Positions 30,780 through 60,136 of a stretch of DNA of 64,000 bases are shown here, in pieces. Origin of the DNA: Sergeia podlipaevii (taxonomy: Eukaryota > Euglenozoa > Kinetoplastea > Trypanosomatida > Trypanosomatidae); contig JASANZ010002230.1 in assembly GCA_030849805.1 (NCBI GenBank), forward strand, positions 18,856-82,855, written 5' to 3'. Position 1 is the first letter of the stretch. The number at the start of each line of letters is the position of its first letter. The notes below the pieces were generated by a model. That model made no database searches, was not told the DNA's origin, and was given only the letters and a program-made list of their open reading frames with translations. A program made the position numbers and the translations under genes.

Positions 30780-33191
30780 TCACGCACGGGACCACCACTC
30801 GTCGCAGAACAGCACCTCGCGAAGAAAGACAGTCGCATAGCAGGAGGATGGCAAATAAAACGACAGTCGCGCATCCATGTCACCTGTCTCACTCGTGCTG
30901 GTCTCTAGAGATGCATCCTGCGGTACAACAAGAAGCGCACGCCATGATCCCGGCACAGGCACTCCCGCAACCTTCTTCTTATCAGATAAGTCTACAGAAC
31001 TCAAGCCCATCGCCTCACATGCATAATCCCCCGCAGAAGCCACAAGACCCTCAACAGATCTTTCTTCTGTGGGACTCAGCACGACAGCACTCGCGCGATC
31101 ACTGTCAATGCAATAGCCTCCTAGTGGAAGCCGCAACGATGCAAGTGCATCGCTTTGACTTTGCGTCAGCCGCCCTGCCTGCCGCTTCTGAACTATGAAA
31201 GAAGCGGAGAGATTGAAGAAGAGACTTTGAGCTGCATGCACCCACATGCTGCGCAAGGCAAAGGGCACACCATCGCATATCGCACGTTCACACACCCGCG
31301 TCCACAACGGTGACTCCTCTTCAACGTCCTGCTTAGAAAGAGAAAACTCAGAAAAATACATCCGGTACGTCTGCCGCAGCGCGTGCGTCATCACCTGCGC
31401 GTCACGAGACGCACGAGGAGCAAAGCGGGACTCCATCTTGGCTGGAAACTCTGCGTATACCTCTGGACAAGCCCGATACAACGACCGGACAGCGGCCACG
31501 TAACGCCCAGCGAAGAGATGAACTCCCGTGTGATCCTGCACATTCAACACCGACTCACTGAAGCGCTGCTGGCCAAAGTAGTTGATGAAGCCGCAATTCG
31601 TCACCATCTCAAAACGCGCTCGCAGCGCATCCAACACCACCACCTTTGCAGCTGCATCTACAGTGCCAGCAGCATCACTCTCACGTGAAACGTTCTCGCA
31701 AGAGCCCCAGATCACGCTGCGCAGTCGTACGCTGAACCAATTACCACTAAGCTCGCCAATATGAATAGGCGCCTTGAAGGTCCTGGGTGCGCGCCACAGC
31801 ACCTGCAAGTAGCTCCGCTGAGGATCAGTTGGCCACCGCAATGTGAGAAGAGTCCCGCACTTGTGCGCATCACCATCCAGTGCTGGGCTACCTAGCGCAC
31901 CAGAAGCCTTAGTAAGAGGCACAGAGCACCGCTGATACGTGACAGCCTTCTTGTCCTTCATCCCCGCAATCGTTACCTGGCCCTCAGTCGCAGATAGGTG
32001 CATAGCCAACAGCTTCCTCATCTCTGCTGTATCCAAGTTTCGCTTCTTGACAATCATATACACGTACTCGTCAGTGCTTGCCGCTACTGCTTCCGTACCA
32101 GCAGAAGCAGAAGCATCACCATCCTCATTTCGGCCGCGGCGTACACCAGCCATGTGGCTCCGTGGTGGCTGCACGCGCATCGTAACGCAGCCTTCCGTCA
32201 CCTGGCATTTGATGAACGGATAGAAGCGGCGCATGATGCCATGAAAGGCTCGCCGTAAATCCTTCTCGGAAAGTGTCGCCATCGCAGCATCTGCCGTCAC
32301 ATCGTTCGCCTCCAGTGGTGGAGCCTCCCGATAATAAGCTCGGAGTACTTGCCCAGATAATGATGGAGAAGCAGAGGAGAGGGAGGCGCGGGCAGAAGAA
32401 GTAATGCTCTTGGCTGATAATCTGTGAAACAGTTCACGGTCGGCGTCTGCCAGCTTCGGGTCGGCCAGAGTCTGCGCTCTAGACCAGAGGGCTATTGCTT
32501 CTGCCACCTCCTGATTAAAAAGATAAGTGAAGAAGAGATAATGCGGATCCACAATCGCGTAAAGCACTTCATCCTTCTCTTCCCCTTCTGTGCTTCCAGG
32601 TGAAAAATCATTAGTAAGGCGAGTGCGCGTGCGTATGTACGTGTAACTAGCTCTCACCCCGCCATGAAGCAACTTGCGCTCAGTCTTTGAGTAGGCCGCC
32701 CAGCTGAGAATACACTCCCTCTGAGACCACCATGGCCGATTCTTCATCTCCTCGTCATCTGCGGCTGAAGAAGGCCTACCAGTAGATATCTCATGAACAA
32801 GAAGACTCAGCTCATTACTGGTAAGAGAGAGAGCCTGGGCGGCCACCGCCTCTAATGTACCTAACGTGGCAACGAGGCGTGTGTCACTGGCGTCGAGAAG
32901 CGCCTCAACATCGAGGATGGGCTCTGGCGCAGTAGCGCTCTCTGTCACGTCAACAGATGCATCGGTGACATCCCCCAGGACAGATTCACACACGTTGACG
33001 GATGCTGGGAAAGATGACGCAGAAGCTCCTCCTGCGCCTTCAGCAAAGTCGTACGTGGCGCTGTCGGTCCGCTTGCCCGCACGGTCCACCTCAACCACAA
33101 CGAAGTCCTCTGGCTCTGACTTCAGCTGGCCAGTAAGAGGCTGGCCAGTTGGTGGAACCCAGAAAGCTGAGATACCACACGCCCGGAGCAT
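30780..33191 (-). CDS. PUS7: tRNA pseudouridine synthase, TruD/PUS7 family
   Basis: 803 residues from the ATG at 33191. TruD-family hallmarks are clear. An N-terminal EDFVVVEVDRAGK strand lies at about residues 28-40. The catalytic segment GMKDKKAVTYQ has Asp413 as the expected nucleophile. The sequence NYFGQQRF lies further on, with a C-terminal VLSPTEERSVEG segment. KKRNLDTAEM (about residues 382-391) matches the conserved lead-in to the active site. PUS7 isomerises uridine to pseudouridine in tRNA, U2 snRNA and some mRNAs, in nucleus and cytoplasm. The protein is longer than bacterial TruD (about 350) and similar to yeast Pus7 (676), with low-complexity insertions around residues 50-150, 260-280 and 355-375. 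Family assignment is secure. Confidence 0.95.
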   Translation of the reverse strand: MLRACGISAFWVPPTGQPLTGQLKSEPEDFVVVEVDRAGKRTDSATYDFAEGAGGASASSFPASVNVCESVLGDVTDASVDVTESATAPEPILDVEALLDASDTRLVATLGTLEAVAAQALSLTSNELSLLVHEISTGRPSSAADDEEMKNRPWWSQRECILSWAAYSKTERKLLHGGVRASYTYIRTRTRLTNDFSPGSTEGEEKDEVLYAIVDPHYLFFTYLFNQEVAEAIALWSRAQTLADPKLADADRELFHRLSAKSITSSARASLSSASPSLSGQVLRAYYREAPPLEANDVTADAAMATLSEKDLRRAFHGIMRRFYPFIKCQVTEGCVTMRVQPPRSHMAGVRRGRNEDGDASASAGTEAVAASTDEYVYMIVKKRNLDTAEMRKLLAMHLSATEGQVTIAGMKDKKAVTYQRCSVPLTKASGALGSPALDGDAHKCGTLLTLRWPTDPQRSYLQVLWRAPRTFKAPIHIGELSGNWFSVRLRSVIWGSCENVSRESDAAGTVDAAAKVVVLDALRARFEMVTNCGFINYFGQQRFSESVLNVQDHTGVHLFAGRYVAAVRSLYRACPEVYAEFPAKMESRFAPRASRDAQVMTHALRQTYRMYFSEFSLSKQDVEEESPLWTRVCERAICDGVPFALRSMWVHAAQSLFFNLSASFIVQKRQAGRLTQSQSDALASLRLPLGGYCIDSDRASAVVLSPTEERSVEGLVASAGDYACEAMGLSSVDLSDKKKVAGVPVPGSWRALLVVPQDASLETSTSETGDMDARLSFYLPSSCYATVFLREVLFCDEWWSRA

Positions 33192-37142: not shown

Positions 37143-40100
37143 CTAGTACAAGTCGCTAATCGGTGCCACGCATATCTTAACAATGTTGTCGCGCGCAAGC
37201 TTGTCTGTGCGCATGAGGTCCTTGCGCCTCAGAAAGGGAAACACACCCCAACCCTTACCACTGAAGGACTCGGTCCACCCGTTCACCTTCCACTCTGTCC
37301 ACGATACCTCTGAGAAGGCGATGACACGAAAGTCAAAGCGCATGCGGTGCCCGCACGGAAACAGAAAGAGGCCGAGCCACTGCTCCTCTCCAGCGGCGTT
37401 CGTAATAGACGCATCCTCAAAGGGGCTAGACGCACGGCCAAAGTTAGTGCCAGTAGACTTGTGACGTCCCACAAGACCGCCTGCCAGATGGGATGGCTCA
37501 TTATATTGAGATGGTGGCTGCCGAAGGTCGGGTCTCGATGAAGGCGGGTCAATGAGAAGCGGTGGAGGTGTACGGACTCCATCGCTGGCTCTCGCAGACG
37601 CAGCACCAAAGTCAATCTCATACGGGTTAGGAGCAGACCCATCGGTGCATCCATACGCAGGTGCGGTGCTAAGAGCGGCAAGACCACCACCTCCACGGCC
37701 TCTACCATCGGCTGCGAAAGAAAAACTTAGCGCTGCATCTGAAGACGCTGGCAGGGGGGCAATACGCAACTCCCACTGCACGCCTAGTAACCGGAATGGA
37801 GTAGAACACACCGCCATGGTCTGCCCCGGGCAGAAGAGCTGTGTAGCGTCCTGTATAGACCATATGTGCCCGCGCTGTAGATCCAGCAGGCACCTCTCCA
37901 TCAGAGGAGATGCACGGTACGTACCACCGCCTGGGCTGCGACAGCGTCGGCCTGTGCTCACGGAGCTTGTGTCTCTGCCTGTGTGTCGATCTCTATTTTG
38001 AGAAGGTTGCGGCTGTTGTGCATCATCAGCCTCGCTGAAGGAAACAGACTGTCTGCTAACAACCCCAGAAGGACTGCGTATTGGCGAAACATTCGTAGAC
38101 CAACGGTCATAGCGCGACGATGAAGGTGGCGAGGAGGTTGTTCTGCGGATACCTTCCGTGCCGGTATTGATGTGCAAAATGTGACTGTTCACTGCATCAG
38201 TGGCAACCGGTGAAGCCACTCCCGGTGCCACTGCTGAACTCCTCTTGTCGCTGTCAGTACCATCTCCTAATGCTTCAATCTGGCGACGAATAAGATCCAC
38301 GTTGATTGCCCCGAGCATGACGTCCACCCGCTTGTTGGCGCCTCGTACCATATCAACAGCGCTCGCCAATCTGGTTTCCTCCGCCTTATCAGCCAGTTTG
38401 AAAGAGTTCTGTGCGTCACACATCAAACGTGGTCCCAAACGGGAAAACTGTAGTAGGGCACCCAGTGGGGGTTGTGTCGGAGCGGCAACCTGTCGTTGAT
38501 TACCTGCCGACTGAGGGGGAGCCCTCAAGGAGGCAAGCGCGTGCTCCAACGGTGCGAGAGCACGCTGGTACTTGGCCCTCACCTCACTAGCCTCCCGCAC
38601 TGGCGGTGTTAAGAGACCGGACTGTTCCGTCAGCTGCCTAAACAGGGACCGCTCTCGCGCATCGAGTGCCTTGCGTAGCTCGGCAAACTGACCACGCAGC
38701 TGTAGAACGCGATGCCGATGCCGTCTCTGCATTTCCGTCTGCTCCGCAGCGAGTTGTGCCTCTACACGGGCAAAGTGATCCCGCCACTGGTTCAAGTCGT
38801 GACACAGCGCCTGCATCTGTCGCCGCACCCGGGCAGCGTGCACCTGTGCCTCCTCCACCTCATGACCCCTGTGCGTGCCAACACTGGCGCAGTATGGGCA
38901 GATGAGCTCGTCGCACAGTATGCAGTGTAGGGCGGTAAGCTGTTGTGGGTGCACAGGACACTGAATTGGATTGAAACGTGGCCCAGAAGCAGCAGCACCA
39001 CCACCAGCAAGAGACCTCAATGGCCGCTCGTGTGACGGAGACGACTCAAGTGCGGGCGGCATGGAGGCACCTGGAGGAAGCGGTCGTGAAGCATCACCAC
39101 TGTATGCAGACCGCATCAGCGACGACGAGGCAGGTAGCTTCCCAGACACAGCAGCGCCTCTGCTCGGGCTGTGCAAAGCGTAACCAGAAAGTGGCGCGCC
39201 TGTGTTCATTGAAAGTCCGTTATCGTTACTGCTGATTTGACGCCGTGGGTTGGGTGGAGGGGAGTACCGGCCTGGGCCTCCCTCCGCGGTCGGCTCTCGC
39301 GCAGAAAAGCGCGGTGGACTCGCGGCGCCGCTCCCGCTCGGGTCGTAGCGATACTGAGAGGAGGGCAGATCCGTAGTTGACTGCTGCATCCCTGGCCGCC
39401 TCGACAAGGACCCCTGGGGACTAGAGCTGTCAAGAGAGTCCTCTCGCCTACGCGGTGACATCTGTCGTTGTTGCTGCTCACGCCGCGGATGCATTCTACT
39501 TGCTGAAACACTTCTCGGGCTTGGCGCTGGCGATGAGGCCAAGAGCAGCGGGCCTTCAGCATAACTGACGTGCATGTTGGGTGCACCGCGATGGCTATGA
39601 TTGTCATCTCTGAGAAGAGCCGCGTCTGCGCTGCTAGGTCGTGCTGGCGCCACACTCGGTCTTATAGACTCGCCCGCGATAGGTGCGGCAGCCGCTACGG
39701 AGTGCGAGCGACGTCGCCTACCGTTTCCCAGTGTAGAGCTATAGAGCGACCCGACAGACGCATCCAGCTCATGTTCACGACTTTGCGGCGATAATATCGA
39801 ATACACTTCCGCAGCTGGAAACGCCTCCGTGGAGGATGCCGGCAGGAGAGGTGGTATCGTGCTGGCACCCGCGCCGACCCAAGATGGAGATGTAGATGGA
39901 CTGGGTGAGGAAGGGCTCAAACCGCCCTCTCCACCGGCACCTGATACTCCACTGGGCTCATCACGCTTGCGCGGAAACACTGTCAGGACATATCTCGGGA
40001 GTGCTTGATGGCTCACATGCACTCGCACTTGCGTCACGTAAGGTAGCTGCCGGGTCCATTGCATTGCCTTTGGTCGCTGATCTCGCAGGTTGGTGTCCTC

Positions 40101-41000
40101 GCTGTAATAAAGACTATCATACCCATCCGGGGGTGTCACAGGAGCTCCGCTGTTGGTCAGCGGCACATCAGAGAACCAGCTGCGGCCCGGGGCTACCTCG
40201 CACAAGAGCACCTTCTGTCTCGCCTCCATCGCAGCCTTCTTGTCATCCGCGTTGAGCATGCTAGAGGCAAAAATAAACGGATTCTGACGAGTACTTGCGC
40301 AACTGTTCCTGCCGTTGGTCCCGATTTCTGGAATGCTCAGACTTTTCATTGTGTTGTGAATGTCCTTCCTCATACTGCCAATTGCATTCGTGCAAAGTGC
40401 CGCTTCCTCCGACCGAACTGGGATCCCATCTCGCAGCACAAAGCCGTACTGCAACACCTCTGTCGTACTCCAAGAGTTGTTAGTGTAGTACAGCAGGCGC
40501 ACCTTGTCATGGTCGCCGTGTAGTATACCACCTTCCTGTCGAGTCTGGTCAAACATGCGGGTGAGATAGGGGTACTGTACACGAGTAGCTTGCTGTAGAT
40601 CAAAGGCAATGTATCTGTTGCCCATCATGCGTTGAACGTGATTGGAGAGTTCCAAAAACTCGGCGCGGTCCTTCTCTGGGTCCAGTGGTACTAGCACAAG
40701 CAGTGCAGATTCAGCCCATAGCTGAGCTCGATAAGTAGAAAGAGAGGTAGGAAGCATGCTGGTGGTAGCAGCAGGGCTTGCAGATGCCAGAAGCGCATCA
40801 GTCTGCCGAAGCTGTTGAACGTTCTCTAGTAAGTCGTAACGGGAAGTGCTGTAGTTCCAGTAGGAGATTAGCTTCGCATGGCGCTTGGTACGCTGCTCGA
40901 GGATCTGCCGTAGTTCTGCGAGAGACCCAGGACAGCTCATGATGGGTAGTACTAGAGGCGTCTTCTCTGCATCGCAGTACACAATGATATTGAGCTGCAT
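37143..41000 (-). CDS. B-box, coiled-coil and MATH domain protein (TRIM37-like layout)
   Basis: 1,285 residues from the ATG at 41000, 13 nt after an AG acceptor; the upstream extension is AT-rich and precedes that acceptor. The first 350 residues are compact and unrecognised (IIVYCDAEKTPLVLP start). A long Ser/Pro/Arg-rich linker follows. Residues about 680-712 form a B-box zinc site: C-P-V-H, HCILC, CPYC and H-R-G-H. A coiled coil of about 80 residues follows (DLNQWRDHFARVEAQLAAEQ onward). The C-terminal region (about residues 1,030-1,285) looks like a MATH/TRAF domain: SPFRLLG-like start, WELRIAPLP, a Ser/Gly-rich insertion, WLGLFLFPCGHRM, then SFSGKGWGVFPFLRRKDLM. B-box, coiled coil then MATH is the TRIM37 order, but no RING is seen, so E3 ligase activity is not supported. 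Confidence 0.8.
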   Translation of the reverse strand: MQLNIIVYCDAEKTPLVLPIMSCPGSLAELRQILEQRTKRHAKLISYWNYSTSRYDLLENVQQLRQTDALLASASPAATTSMLPTSLSTYRAQLWAESALLVLVPLDPEKDRAEFLELSNHVQRMMGNRYIAFDLQQATRVQYPYLTRMFDQTRQEGGILHGDHDKVRLLYYTNNSWSTTEVLQYGFVLRDGIPVRSEEAALCTNAIGSMRKDIHNTMKSLSIPEIGTNGRNSCASTRQNPFIFASSMLNADDKKAAMEARQKVLLCEVAPGRSWFSDVPLTNSGAPVTPPDGYDSLYYSEDTNLRDQRPKAMQWTRQLPYVTQVRVHVSHQALPRYVLTVFPRKRDEPSGVSGAGGEGGLSPSSPSPSTSPSWVGAGASTIPPLLPASSTEAFPAAEVYSILSPQSREHELDASVGSLYSSTLGNGRRRRSHSVAAAAPIAGESIRPSVAPARPSSADAALLRDDNHSHRGAPNMHVSYAEGPLLLASSPAPSPRSVSASRMHPRREQQQRQMSPRRREDSLDSSSPQGSLSRRPGMQQSTTDLPSSQYRYDPSGSGAASPPRFSAREPTAEGGPGRYSPPPNPRRQISSNDNGLSMNTGAPLSGYALHSPSRGAAVSGKLPASSSLMRSAYSGDASRPLPPGASMPPALESSPSHERPLRSLAGGGAAASGPRFNPIQCPVHPQQLTALHCILCDELICPYCASVGTHRGHEVEEAQVHAARVRRQMQALCHDLNQWRDHFARVEAQLAAEQTEMQRRHRHRVLQLRGQFAELRKALDARERSLFRQLTEQSGLLTPPVREASEVRAKYQRALAPLEHALASLRAPPQSAGNQRQVAAPTQPPLGALLQFSRLGPRLMCDAQNSFKLADKAEETRLASAVDMVRGANKRVDVMLGAINVDLIRRQIEALGDGTDSDKRSSAVAPGVASPVATDAVNSHILHINTGTEGIRRTTSSPPSSSRYDRWSTNVSPIRSPSGVVSRQSVSFSEADDAQQPQPSQNRDRHTGRDTSSVSTGRRCRSPGGGTYRASPLMERCLLDLQRGHIWSIQDATQLFCPGQTMAVCSTPFRLLGVQWELRIAPLPASSDAALSFSFAADGRGRGGGGLAALSTAPAYGCTDGSAPNPYEIDFGAASARASDGVRTPPPLLIDPPSSRPDLRQPPSQYNEPSHLAGGLVGRHKSTGTNFGRASSPFEDASITNAAGEEQWLGLFLFPCGHRMRFDFRVIAFSEVSWTEWKVNGWTESFSGKGWGVFPFLRRKDLMRTDKLARDNIVKICVAPISDLY

Positions 41001-41233: not shown

Positions 41234-41573
41234 AACTAATCAAAGAAAAAGAAGGAAAAACAGCAGCAGTAAGCCGCTATTATTATGTAAATATATATAT
41301 ATATATATATAATGGAGAGAAAAGAAACGAGAGATACATAATGGATGAAAGAGGGCTCACTCTCAGCGCTATTGACGTATGAGTCCAGAGATAGAAGTTC
41401 ACATACATACACTCTGTGCATTCTCACCAGAACACAAACACCATTTCACATCATATGTTTCCTTCCTTCGATTTTTTTTCTTTTTCTTTTAAAAGGCTCC
41501 GACGCAAAAAAAAAAAAGCTGGAATAGATATCACGCATTGAAAAGAAAAAATAAAGGGGAAGAAAGGATTCTC

Positions 41574-41689
41574 TCTCACATGACTCAGGTACGCTGAAAA
41601 TGAAATTTTTCTGCTTCAGCTCCGCCACGCAATGAGTAACCTCAGCGTGACAGAGCAGGTGAAGCTTTCCGCACCCTTAATGGATGAGA
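41574..41689 (-). ncRNA. Structured RNA element, copy 1 of 3
   Basis: Read on the minus strand: outer helix P1 is UCUCAU (41684-41689) with GUGAGA (41574-41579). Then comes an invariant internal loop, CCAUUAA on the 5' side and GAGUCAU on the 3' side. Helix P2 is GGUGCG (41670-41675) with CGUACC (41588-41593), including a G-U pair. The apical part is a strong hairpin: GCUUCA (41660-41665) pairs with UGAAGC (41613-41618), and twelve further pairs join 41645-41656 to 41619-41630, two of them U-G. On the plus strand those wobble pairs would be C-A mismatches, so the RNA is minus-sense. A pyrimidine-rich tract follows the element on the coding strand. I do not recognise the RNA class; an independent small RNA and a UTR element are both possible. 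Confidence 0.72.
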
Positions 41690-41746
41690 TTAGAGTCGAT
41701 ACACACAAAGAGACACAGGAATATGGACACGGAGGGGGGGACTCTC

Positions 41747-41869
41747 TTTCACATGACTCAGGCGCGCCGGAAATCGAGCTTCCAACGCCCCCTCCCCCAC
41801 TCCTGCCTTAGGTATGACGTAGGCAAAAAGAAAAGGAAGGAGCGCGATGCGCACCCTTAATGGATGAAA
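41747..41869 (-). ncRNA. Structured RNA element, copy 2 of 3
   Basis: Same plan as copy 1. P1 is UUUCAU (41864-41869) with GUGAAA (41747-41752): both strands differ from the other copies at the paired position, a C-G to U-A double change. The CCAUUAA/GAGUCAU loop is unchanged. P2 is GGUGCGC with GCGCGCC, a G-C pair replacing the G-U or A-U of the others. The apical part is a pyrimidine-rich strand facing a purine-rich strand (GGAGUGGGGGAGGGGG), closed by GCCU/AGGC; many pairs there would be G-U, so its detail is less certain than in copies 1 and 3. Confidence 0.7.
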
Positions 41870-41901
41870 TTCTGCGGGGAAAATAAAGGAAGAAAAATCT
41901 T

Positions 41902-42021
41902 TCTCACATGACTCAGGTACGCTGTGAATGAAAAAAAGAATCACTACTCTGTATTCTCAAATCTATCGTTTCCAATAGCAAATGTAGAACACAAAGTTTT
42001 ACGTACCCTTAATGGATGAGA
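41902..42021 (-). ncRNA. Structured RNA element, copy 3 of 3
   Basis: P1 is UCUCAU (42016-42021) with GUGAGA (41902-41907); the CCAUUAA/GAGUCAU loop is identical to the other copies; P2 is GGUACG with CGUACC, here with an A-U pair where copy 2 has G-C. The apical hairpin is strong: twelve pairs between 41986-41997 and 41946-41957, then an inner stem CUAUUG/CGAUAG (41973-41978 with 41963-41968) closed by a GAAA tetraloop. All three G-U pairs in the apical hairpin are valid on the minus strand only. A coding-strand pyrimidine tract ending in CGCAG follows (AG near 41874), just before copy 2. Confidence 0.72.
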
Positions 42022-42311
42022 TAAAAGCAAAAATCTGACTTCTTAAGAGTCGTATATATAATGTTACTTTTTTTTGATTTGATTAGATGTGTACGCAGGC
42101 TAGCTTGATTTTCTTCTGCTTCTTTCCCGATTTGCAGTTTTCCTTCTCTATGAAGAAGCAAAAAAAAAAAAAAGAATGTAGAAAAGCAAAGATAAGAGGA
42201 ATTTGTACTTTTTTTTAAAGAAAAGGAGCATTGTTTTAAGAGAGACGGAGTGCATGCTTTAGCCAAAGTGGGGAGCCCTTTTAGAACAAAAAAAAAGCTC
42301 GCTAGTGCCAT

Positions 42312-43721: not shown

Positions 43722-46700
43722 TTAGTAATACGTGTCCTCTATATCATCTTCTGTCACATCCAGCATTGCCAGCATCGCCAAAATAGCAGCCTTCATCTTT
43801 TCATAGGGGAAGACCTCCTGGCGCTGCAGGCCGTAAATGTGCTCATAGGCGCTCAGCTCGTGATAGCAGTCCTTCAACGTCTCTATCGTGCCCTTCAGCA
43901 GCTGGACACTTTGCTCCTGTCCCTGTGAGAAGTGCGGGCCAGCAGTGCTCATGCTTCCAACCGCTGAAAAGCCCTCATAATTGCTGCCGCCTATCTCCAA
44001 TCCAGTGGCGAGTGCCTCCGCCCGAGTCTTCGTGCCTGCAAGAGCGGCTTCGTCTTGATCAATTGCGGCCTCCATGGACTGTATGAGCGCCATGTCCTGC
44101 TCTTGTTTGCGATCATTGAGATACTTACGGAGAAACTTGAGGTGCTGGCGCTGGCTAAGTACCATCTCATATTTAGTCCATAGTAGGCGCCAGTGATCGC
44201 GGCGGGCACGCGTGCGGGACTCTTCATCGACGAAGATGCGGTACGCCTGGGATTCGGTGTTGAGAGCGCGCGCACTCGCAAGCTCATAGACGATTCCTAT
44301 GTTACCAAACAGATTCTTCTTCCCTGCGTGTGGTGACGATCCCCGGTATTTCTGTTGCACCTTTGCCTTCTGTGACATAGTCGATGGGGGACTCATCAAA
44401 GTCTTCTCTCCGCTGCTCTGCATATTCGCCTTGGCTGGCGTAGTGGTAGCGCTGCCTGATTTCTTTGGCGTAGAACTAGCAGACCCAACTCCTCCATGCG
44501 GGCTGCCAGCCACCTTTGTCGAGGCCACATCGGACCTCTGGGGTGAAGCGCTACTCGGCGCACTCGCTGCATCGGCTTCCTCCTCCTCTTCCTCCTCCTT
44601 TTCTGCTACAGAAGTGAAGCAGTAGTAATGCAAGTTGCGCATCTCCATGTAGTGGATGGGCCGCGTGAGGCACCCCTCCTGGATATGTTGATGAACATCA
44701 TGAGTAACAATAATGCGAATGCCATACTCCCTGCAGATCTGCTCAAGCGGAAACATAAGAGGTATGCAATGCGAAAGAATCGAATAGTGCTTGGACACGT
44801 GAAATCCAACACGTCCACGCATCGAGGTTGTATCTTTGGAAATGACTATGGGGCAGTAGAGCATCTCCTGCGGCACAAGACGGTTCTCGGGGAAGTCCAT
44901 GTAGTTTTCAAGACACTCTTGAATCAGCAGAGCAGCTCGTGCAGCGCGTTCCTCCGCTCTGATATGGTACGTTTGGCCTCCAATCACCAAGCTTCCCTCA
45001 GCATCCTTAGTAGTGCTGCTCATGAGGCTACAGATGGATGGCTCTCTCATATGCTCGACGACAGAGCTAGACCTGAGCGCTGCGGACATTTTCTCTGCAT
45101 CGCGGCCAGTACGGAACTGAACGAGTGCGCCGTCGCTGCTAATCTGCACGAGCTCTCCGCCATACAGGCTCGCAGCGTAGCGAATGCACGCAAGCGAGTA
45201 GTTGAGGGCGGCGGCGACGGGGGAGAGTGGTGTGCTGCTGCTGTCTTCCCCAACACCTCCTCCTTCAGATCCATGAGCCGACAAGGGATTGTAGCTCACT
45301 TGGCTATTCGTACTTCCCCGGTGCTCCGCCTCGTACCGGCGCTGGCGGTACTTGAGATCGTCGCACTGCGTTGCACCAAATGTCTTACCCATCGAATGCA
45401 TGGAATTGTTGCTGTCCCATTGCTCGCCATCGTGCACGATCACCACGTCGGCTGCATCTGCGCTGCCGGCACTGTCGTGACGCCCACCACCGCACAATCC
45501 AGAGCAGCACCCATCCTTCTTCTTGTCATACTCTGTCACCTCCTCTCTCTGGCGGCGCAGCTGTTCCTCACGCAGAGAATAATGCTGCTGCGCAGTCACG
45601 AGGGCCTCTGAAAAATTAAAAGAGCGGAAAGAAAAGAACAAGTATGTCGCCCTAGTCGCCTCTAGGCCTTCCTGGAGATTTACAGAGAACTTCTTCTCCA
45701 GCACAGATGGTCCAAGGCGTGCCATCCCATCCACATCGTACTGGAGCGGCTTCATCATGTAGTCCGGTATGAAGGGCTTCACAAGAAGTAGAGGATGAAC
45801 CGCCTGATGGATGCGCAGCTGCATCTGCGTTGCCTCCGTCAGCTTCATGCTCTCTCCTTTGAACTGATACATGAGTGCCATGTGTGTCTCCGGGTGGGAC
45901 AAATAGCAGGCCACCCCTCGGTGAGCGCTGGCAATATCTGCAGCCGCTGCCATGCCGCTGTCGATCTGTAGACGGCCACCGGCGGCATCCGCAGGATCGC
46001 CACTGCGATGCATTGGAGACGCCTGCCCGGGCGCAGTCATGGCACCAGGGCCAGAGATGGAGAAAAAGGCGTCTTTAAATCCCTGCTGTTCAGCACCACC
46101 ACCACCAGCAGCAGTAGCGCCATCAAACGGATCACCCCCAGCCACGCACACCTCCGCCGCAGAAAGATCAATCTCCTCGAAGCTGCCCAGCTTCCAGCAA
46201 TAGTAGTCAAGCACGCGCAGAGTGCTCGCCTTCACCGCGACCGCCTTATCCTCCAGAGCAAAGTCTTGCTTCACGATGCGCTGCTCGCGTGTAAAGCGCC
46301 GACGGTTCAGGGTGTTGATTAAGAGTAAAACAATGCCAGTGATACTGACGATACATATAACAGCAAAATGAGAAAAATCAGTCACGTAGAACTTGTAATC
46401 GACCTTGAAAGAGTTCATGTTCATCCACGAAGAAGAAAGAAACGAGTGCACGGGGCCCATAGCCATAAGTTGCGAAATAGAAGGTTCAACAATGGGCACC
46501 TGAGGCAAAAGACCCGTCACCGCCTCCTCCTGACAATTCATGATGTCAGATGCAACTGGACCATATACAGTACTGATATAAGAAGCAGTGATAGGGGAGC
46601 ATATAAGGTTGGAGCTGATACCTTGAATGGCACGGTCAGACGTCACTGGCTTGTTCTCTTGAAGCCGCAAAATACCTTCTGACCGCAGTTGAGACCAGGC

Positions 46701-47495
46701 GAGCGAGAAGACATAGGCTAAGTTGCTCACCATAGAAGAACGTGCAATGAGCCGCTGGGTAGTGGCCTTCGACAAATACGCAAAGAGCGTACTGAACGAT
46801 TCAACGGCCAACTGGCATTCCTTCTTTTCGAGGTGGCTGACAGCAGCGTCAAGCAAGTCGTTGAGCTGCTGCTTTGAGCTTTTCATGAGTTTGTTAATCT
46901 CCTTGCGAATAGAAGATATTTCAGACTCAGGAATGACGACCACGCTGCCATCAATATTCGCCGCTGCGCACAACATCCCTGTTGACATGCCCACCTCGGA
47001 CACCTGCAGTGCGAGCGTGCCGATACGACTCATTTCCTTGTCATGACTCATGTCAATAACATCTTCCACCAACAGTGCGAGCACCGTCACAGCGCAGGCC
47101 AGAAGAGCAATGAGCAGATGGATACGCCATTCTACAAATAGCCACTGAAAAGTGTTCCCGCAGCATCCATCCCTATGATTCACCTCCTCGTCGCCTGAGG
47201 TGCTGCGCTTTGAAATCACTGTGCCGGAGCGCGAGCGCTGTATCTGGCCCGCGTTCGAAGCGTCTCTCCAGTCGTCACCATTAATGGGTTCACTCAGCAG
47301 TGCGGTGTGAGGGTGCTGTGACGCTGGTATAACTGCAACGCCACGCATGTGTTCCTCATCCGTAAAGAAAGGATTTTGGTTAGGACTCCTCGTCCATGCA
47401 TGGTACGCCGGGCTGTTGCTGTTTTTGTTGTTGTTCCCGTCTCTGGCATCGAGAAGTGGGTTGTCCGTGCTTGGAGAAGGCGTGATTGCATTCAT
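43722..47495 (-). CDS. Two-span membrane protein with degenerate class III cyclase domain
   Basis: 1,257 residues from the ATG at 47495. Hydrophobic segments at about 125-145 and 375-395 bracket a roughly 230-residue region, probably extracytoplasmic. The cytoplasmic part resembles a class III adenylate/guanylate cyclase broken by insertions. A strand near residue 618 reads ATYLFFSFRSFNFSEAL where active cyclases have F-x-D-I-x-x-F; GGELVQISSDGALVQF near 785 matches the second metal-binding strand; and ILSHCIPLMFPLEQICREYGIRIIVTHDVHQ near 902 matches the late helix and strand. The first metal-binding Asp appears to be missing, so catalysis is doubtful. A polyglutamate run and a Ser/Thr/Pro-rich linker follow. 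Topology recalls trypanosomatid receptor cyclases but with an extra helix and no obvious signal peptide. Confidence 0.75.
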   Translation of the reverse strand: MNAITPSPSTDNPLLDARDGNNNKNSNSPAYHAWTRSPNQNPFFTDEEHMRGVAVIPASQHPHTALLSEPINGDDWRDASNAGQIQRSRSGTVISKRSTSGDEEVNHRDGCCGNTFQWLFVEWRIHLLIALLACAVTVLALLVEDVIDMSHDKEMSRIGTLALQVSEVGMSTGMLCAAANIDGSVVVIPESEISSIRKEINKLMKSSKQQLNDLLDAAVSHLEKKECQLAVESFSTLFAYLSKATTQRLIARSSMVSNLAYVFSLAWSQLRSEGILRLQENKPVTSDRAIQGISSNLICSPITASYISTVYGPVASDIMNCQEEAVTGLLPQVPIVEPSISQLMAMGPVHSFLSSSWMNMNSFKVDYKFYVTDFSHFAVICIVSITGIVLLLINTLNRRRFTREQRIVKQDFALEDKAVAVKASTLRVLDYYCWKLGSFEEIDLSAAEVCVAGGDPFDGATAAGGGGAEQQGFKDAFFSISGPGAMTAPGQASPMHRSGDPADAAGGRLQIDSGMAAAADIASAHRGVACYLSHPETHMALMYQFKGESMKLTEATQMQLRIHQAVHPLLLVKPFIPDYMMKPLQYDVDGMARLGPSVLEKKFSVNLQEGLEATRATYLFFSFRSFNFSEALVTAQQHYSLREEQLRRQREEVTEYDKKKDGCCSGLCGGGRHDSAGSADAADVVIVHDGEQWDSNNSMHSMGKTFGATQCDDLKYRQRRYEAEHRGSTNSQVSYNPLSAHGSEGGGVGEDSSSTPLSPVAAALNYSLACIRYAASLYGGELVQISSDGALVQFRTGRDAEKMSAALRSSSVVEHMREPSICSLMSSTTKDAEGSLVIGGQTYHIRAEERAARAALLIQECLENYMDFPENRLVPQEMLYCPIVISKDTTSMRGRVGFHVSKHYSILSHCIPLMFPLEQICREYGIRIIVTHDVHQHIQEGCLTRPIHYMEMRNLHYYCFTSVAEKEEEEEEEADAASAPSSASPQRSDVASTKVAGSPHGGVGSASSTPKKSGSATTTPAKANMQSSGEKTLMSPPSTMSQKAKVQQKYRGSSPHAGKKNLFGNIGIVYELASARALNTESQAYRIFVDEESRTRARRDHWRLLWTKYEMVLSQRQHLKFLRKYLNDRKQEQDMALIQSMEAAIDQDEAALAGTKTRAEALATGLEIGGSNYEGFSAVGSMSTAGPHFSQGQEQSVQLLKGTIETLKDCYHELSAYEHIYGLQRQEVFPYEKMKAAILAMLAMLDVTEDDIEDTYY

Positions 47496-58240: not shown

Positions 58241-60136
<1,896 letters not shown>

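Follow-up and report, generated by a model that had tools for sequence, protein, structure and literature searches.

Three tandem genes of Sergeia podlipaevii very likely encode an AGA-box H/ACA-like snoRNA directed at helix 69 of LSU rRNA

The anatomy of trypanosomatid H/ACA-like RNAs was derived from 100 known members in the paper describing Psiscan (PMC2613932). According to that paper, these RNAs form a single hairpin with one apical loop, whose perfect stem I of 5 to 8 bp is directly preceded by A (or C), usually A, and is followed after 1 to 3 nt by an AGA lying 13 to 16 nt below the target. The upstream side of the pseudouridylation pocket measures 5 to 11 nt, the guide duplexes extend over 3 to 9 nt on each side of the UN, and a perfect stem II with a minimum of 3 to 7 bp lies next to the pocket (PMC2613932). 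The known members have a total size of 57 to 91 nt, which is a description of the set and no mechanistic requirement. In T. brucei, pseudouridines 518, 522, 524, 528, and 530 of helix 69 (H69) of the LSU rRNA are guided by TB9Cs2H1, TB7Cs1H1, TB9Cs5H1, TB3Cs2H1, and TB11Cs6H1, respectively (PMC10662448). As stated in the same source, Psi530 is reduced in a TB11Cs6H1 single knock-out and restored by add-back of the wild-type RNA, while partial loss of Psi530 alters monosome composition and the translation of a subset of proteins. TB11Cs6H1 also guides Psi46 of U2 (PMC6698659), and this report is inconsistent on the rRNA site of the guide, which is given as 1377 in a figure legend and as 530 in the main text. 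Yeast 25S rRNA contains Psi2258, 2260, 2264, and 2266, and snR84 guides the last of these (PMC8307265). Trypanosomatids often carry snoRNA genes in tandem, as exemplified by the 1,504 snoRNA genes in 42 clusters described for L. donovani (PMC8959184).

The sequence analyzed here is a 64,000-nt stretch of S. podlipaevii DNA (the window). Its first-pass annotation had proposed three tandem copies of a structured RNA, and units of the given lengths were indeed found on the minus strand, following one another head to tail from 42021 down to 41574: copy 1 at 41574-41689 (116 nt), copy 2 at 41747-41869 (123 nt), and copy 3 at 41902-42021 (120 nt). Each copy consists of a 6-bp basal helix (P1, equivalent to stem I), an internal loop, a second helix of 7 to 8 bp (P2, equivalent to stem II), and a head. 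The 7 x 7 internal loop, CCAUUAA facing GAGUCAU, is identical in all three, in agreement with the invariance claimed before. Likewise, the minus strand proved to be the direction in which the RNA folds, with z scores of -5.45, -3.09, and -5.50 for copies 1 to 3 (none of 200 shuffles of each was as stable) vs -1.71, +0.41, and -2.05 for the plus strand. The changes from C-G to U-A in P1 and among G-U, G-C, and A-U in P2 are as described, and all 39 cells of the two helices in the three copies are paired. The compensatory change inferred from them holds in that 2 of the 13 pairs are altered on both sides, but since 109 of 500 shuffles of the three sequences reach the same level of covariation, it is weak proof when taken alone, and folding is the stronger evidence. 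The apical parts differ in sequence and yet fold, as had been noted, into a branched head predicted to comprise one long and one short hairpin (a three-way junction) in each copy. Because the head folds despite the divergence of its letters, pairing there may be under selection, although three copies are too few for proof.

The first-pass annotation knew no family with this loop, but its comparison ended at the end of the helix and overlooked an AGA located just 3' of P1. When this trinucleotide is included, the RNA agrees with the H/ACA-like snoRNAs that carry an AGA box. Stem I is a perfect helix of 6 bp preceded by A at position -1, and the invariant AGA follows it after 1 nt in every copy (41570..41572, 41743..41745, and 41898..41900 in copies 1, 2, and 3; all features on the minus strand). 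The distance from the top of the pocket to AGA is 14 nt in all three. The left guide strand CCAUUAA (41677..41683, 41857..41863, and 42009..42015) provides an upstream pocket side of 7 nt and stands opposite the right guide strand GAGUCAU (41580..41586, 41753..41759, and 41908..41914), while stem II, of 7, 8, and 8 bp, lies beside the pocket. Guide duplexes of 7 to 8 and 4 nt can be drawn with the conserved eukaryotic H69 for each copy, i.e. within the 3 to 9 nt of the published anatomy. Two features count against the guide reading. With the mature ends placed by the published rule, which starts the RNA at the A preceding stem I and ends it 3 nt past the AGA, the predicted RNAs occupy 41567..41690, 41740..41870, and 41895..42022 of the minus strand, and at about 124, 131, and 128 nt they are larger than the known members; moreover, the head is branched in all copies instead of carrying a single apical loop. 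Apart from size, all Psiscan sequence rules are satisfied in the three copies. Since all of them match the published anatomy, the RNA does not represent an unknown family, and its internal loop is best read as a pseudouridylation pocket, the letters of which are dictated by the rRNA target.

AUGACUC-UC-UUAA was taken to be a part of LSU H69 before the rRNA sequences were scanned, an order that counts against the assignment. In all three copies, the right strand GAGUCAU pairs with AUGACUC over 7 nt, with an additional G-U in which a letter of stem I takes part, whereas the last four letters of the left strand pair contiguously over only 4 nt (UUAA with UUAA), a shortness that counts against the guide reading. 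The target reads AUGACUC[UC]UUAA, and among the eight uridines of the conserved stretch the one following AUGACUC is the sole fit. In the LSU rRNA of S. podlipaevii itself, the predicted target stretch would be AUGACUCUCUUAA. This rRNA was not found in the assembly: the H69 pattern gave one place with 1 mismatch, whose flank looked unlike rRNA by eye, and a sarcin-ricin pattern gave six places, two of which were put through cmscan and contained no rRNA. The target was for that reason deduced from conservation in other eukaryotes.

To rank the uridines with no site picked in advance, the scan covered five LSU, four SSU, and three 5.8S rRNAs (12 stretches with 6778 uridines), taken from five of eight eukaryotic rRNA loci found within prokaryote genome records. 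As the loci had been picked via the H69 stretch, its presence was given and only its rank is informative. The H69 uridine ranked first in all five LSU rRNAs, with 12 pairs of which 11 were Watson-Crick, while no other site in any of the 12 stretches surpassed 10 pairs, 7 of them Watson-Crick. When 2000 shuffled pockets were run against one rRNA set, 5 attained 11 Watson-Crick pairs anywhere, and a control pocket with swapped strands formed 5 such pairs; a pocket with reversed strands gave 11 pairs (8 Watson-Crick), which counts against the assignment. Among 1,000,000 random targets, 17 equaled this pairing, with 7 and 4 nt as the minimum. With regard to the source of these rRNAs, the eight prokaryote records (L041-L048) carry the eukaryotic LSU H69 stretch, and eukaryotic rRNA genes were present in the five that were checked, so that contamination is likely. 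One of them, L046, has a group I intron shortly after H69, which was kept in the scan. Viral contigs yielded no H69 stretch.

When the predicted target is set as position 530, numbering the other H69 uridines in the conserved stretch accordingly gives exactly the 518, 522, 524, 528, and 530 of T. brucei, and their spacing also reproduces yeast Psi2258, 2260, 2264, and 2266. This bears on the main rival of the guide reading, namely an "AGA-like" RNA that would have the hairpin, the AGA, and the complementarity to rRNA, but would be independent of CBF5 and serve another role, e.g. in rRNA processing. PMC2613932 describes CBF5-independent RNAs of this sort, several of them larger than conventional ones and some of about 150 nt by primer extension, and a size of 124-131 nt would suit such a molecule. 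We nevertheless regard it as very unlikely, because every pocket and spacing rule of a true guide is satisfied here and the target uridine is known to be pseudouridylated by guide RNAs in both T. brucei and yeast.

The units lie within a 2.7-kb gap between the minus-strand reading frames 43722-47495 and 37143-41000. Eighteen of the 25 long reading frames are on one strand, and each of the remaining seven overlaps one of those 18, an arrangement that, like the lipoamide dehydrogenase match described below and the RNA itself, points to a kinetoplastid; a spliced-leader exon pattern gave no match in the assembly. Such a location between two minus-strand genes is what would be expected of a cis-acting element in the 3' UTR of the upstream gene 43722-47495, or of a protein-binding riboregulator, with the fit to rRNA being due to chance, and tandem structured elements do occur in UTRs. 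This explanation predicts neither an AGA at guide spacing, nor A at -1, nor a first rank for a site that is known to be pseudouridylated, and it would have to accept a coincidence that shuffled pockets equaled at the frequency given above; we consider it extremely unlikely. Once the rRNA fit had been found, we no longer considered a riboswitch or an element of a 3' UTR.

As to the neighboring genes, the 1257-aa protein encoded by 43722-47495 (minus strand) has no Pfam or PDB match, and its one relative among the scored candidates is a distant, 28% identical metagenomic protein of 1361 aa (P0001). The 1285-aa product of 37143-41000 (minus strand) contains a B-box zinc finger and is TRIM-like over the B-box and the stretch that follows. 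A gene for a TruD-type pseudouridine synthase (30780-33191, minus strand) is located at a distance of about 8 kb from the three copies, a proximity that is probably a coincidence. About 16 kb away, at 58241-59671, there is a lipoamide dehydrogenase gene, for which the best PDB sequence (796.6 bits) was 2qae, the T. cruzi enzyme. The putative counterpart of this gene in T. brucei is Tb927.11.16730 on chromosome 11 (PMC4288722), which weakly fits the TB11 name. Pyrimidine-rich tracts at 41530-41569 and 41872-41897 follow copies 1 and 3 immediately on their 3' side (minus strand); for solitary snoRNAs that are up-regulated, PMC4855143 describes a U-rich motif on the 3' side.

The search of Rfam suggested by the first-pass annotation returned no matching model: there was no hit in Rfam 15 at the gathering cut-off, and a relaxed threshold gave six sub-threshold matches with E values up to 5, none of them convincing, though this kind of RNA is nonetheless in print. 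A tRNA scan found none. A relationship to snR30/U17 or to the H/ACA domain of telomerase-type RNAs, with a function in processing or elsewhere outside guiding, might account for the enlarged, branched head, but has practically negligible probability, as there is no Rfam match and the geometry and letters of the pocket suit ordinary guiding at one known site. A covariance model built from the three copies scored them at 121-130 bits in the window, followed by a next match of 13.3 bits. BLAST and pattern searches saw no additional copies in the 23.4-Mb assembly, where much diverged copies are possible. The left-strand pattern with up to 1 mismatch occurred in the assembly at the three true places and at three single-mismatch ones; the right-strand pattern with up to 2 mismatches occurred at at least 122 places vs 89 for a control, with three exact occurrences among the matches listed; and two-part patterns hit five places and one place, three of the six being the known copies. 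The three single-mismatch left-strand places, as well as the other three two-part places (L028, L032, and L033), were rejected as copies because the architecture was absent when they were folded. The two-part pattern was found in neither the prokaryote nor the viral contigs. Separately, TTTCATCCATTA, which corresponds to copy 2 from its start through most of the left guide, recurs without the right half at 41337-41350 (minus strand), about 220 nt past copy 1, and is either a decayed fourth copy or a product of chance.

These findings led us to conclude, with high confidence, that the window contains, in tandem, three genes of an H/ACA-like snoRNA with one hairpin and an AGA box, which would direct pseudouridylation of an LSU H69 uridine. 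The earlier interpretation thus stands insofar as it held the elements to be functional, structured, tandem, transcribed from the minus strand, and selected for their loop letters, while "unrecognised" was wrong or unsupported. Starting from the anatomy, the AGA box, and the rRNA fit, which are read from the sequence, we infer that the RNAs would be expressed with the polycistron from the intergenic stretch and excised from a trans-spliced, polyadenylated precursor, as reported for T. brucei snoRNAs (PMC4855143). The mature RNA would assemble with CBF5 and its partners, and its pocket would bind pre-LSU rRNA through the GAGUCAU and UUAA strands. Since these flank the UC of H69, CBF5 would isomerize that U, equivalent to Psi530 of T. 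brucei and Psi2266 of yeast 25S rRNA, and the triplication would raise the level of the guide.

As the predicted target is Psi530, guided in T. brucei by TB11Cs6H1, the window probably holds the counterpart of that RNA, with orthology judged by function; guiding of LSU Psi530, by which such an orthologue would be recognized, is indicated here by the sequence fit only. A search for U2, the second target of TB11Cs6H1, found none in the assembly, in a setting where the RF00004 control itself was positive in 0 of 14 genomes. What had been an unknown RNA becomes a testable assignment at LSU Psi530. It further means that a guide can be both tandem and enlarged, and that Rfam models and searches limited to about 90 nt, as in the Psiscan rule, would miss such RNAs. 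The three copies constitute a natural experiment in which the guide strands are fixed while the heads diverge. A more far-reaching proposal, which we consider rather unlikely, is that, in this triplicated guide for a pseudouridine ranking among the most consequential of the trypanosome ribosome, the enlarged head with its maintained pairing serves a further purpose (a chaperone role, an additional target, or binding of a lineage-specific protein would be candidates) and that, in addition, copy number tunes Psi530.

This kind of RNA and what is very probably its T. brucei counterpart, TB11Cs6H1, have already been published, so that what is unusual here is the enlarged branched head and the number of copies. 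The RNA shares stem I, the pocket, stem II, the AGA spacing, and the A at -1 with other trypanosomatid H/ACA-like snoRNAs, and differs from them in having 124-131 nt and a three-way-junction head instead of 57-91 nt and one loop. It resembles TB11Cs6H1 in the predicted target uridine and in the AGA-box single hairpin expected of the class. In T. brucei, however, each H69 guide, TB11Cs6H1 included, is said to come from a solitary gene that holds one snoRNA (PMC10662448; TB3Cs2 appears as a small H/ACA-only cluster in PMC2613932), unlike the three tandem copies found here. Like TB11Cs6H1, the copies stand alone between protein genes, and short of a systematic search no neighboring snoRNA was recognized. 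Finally, the rRNA position is, by spacing, equal to the one served by snR84 in yeast 25S rRNA, but yeast H/ACA RNAs are of the two-hairpin ACA type, whereas the RNA of S. podlipaevii would do this work with a single hairpin and an AGA.
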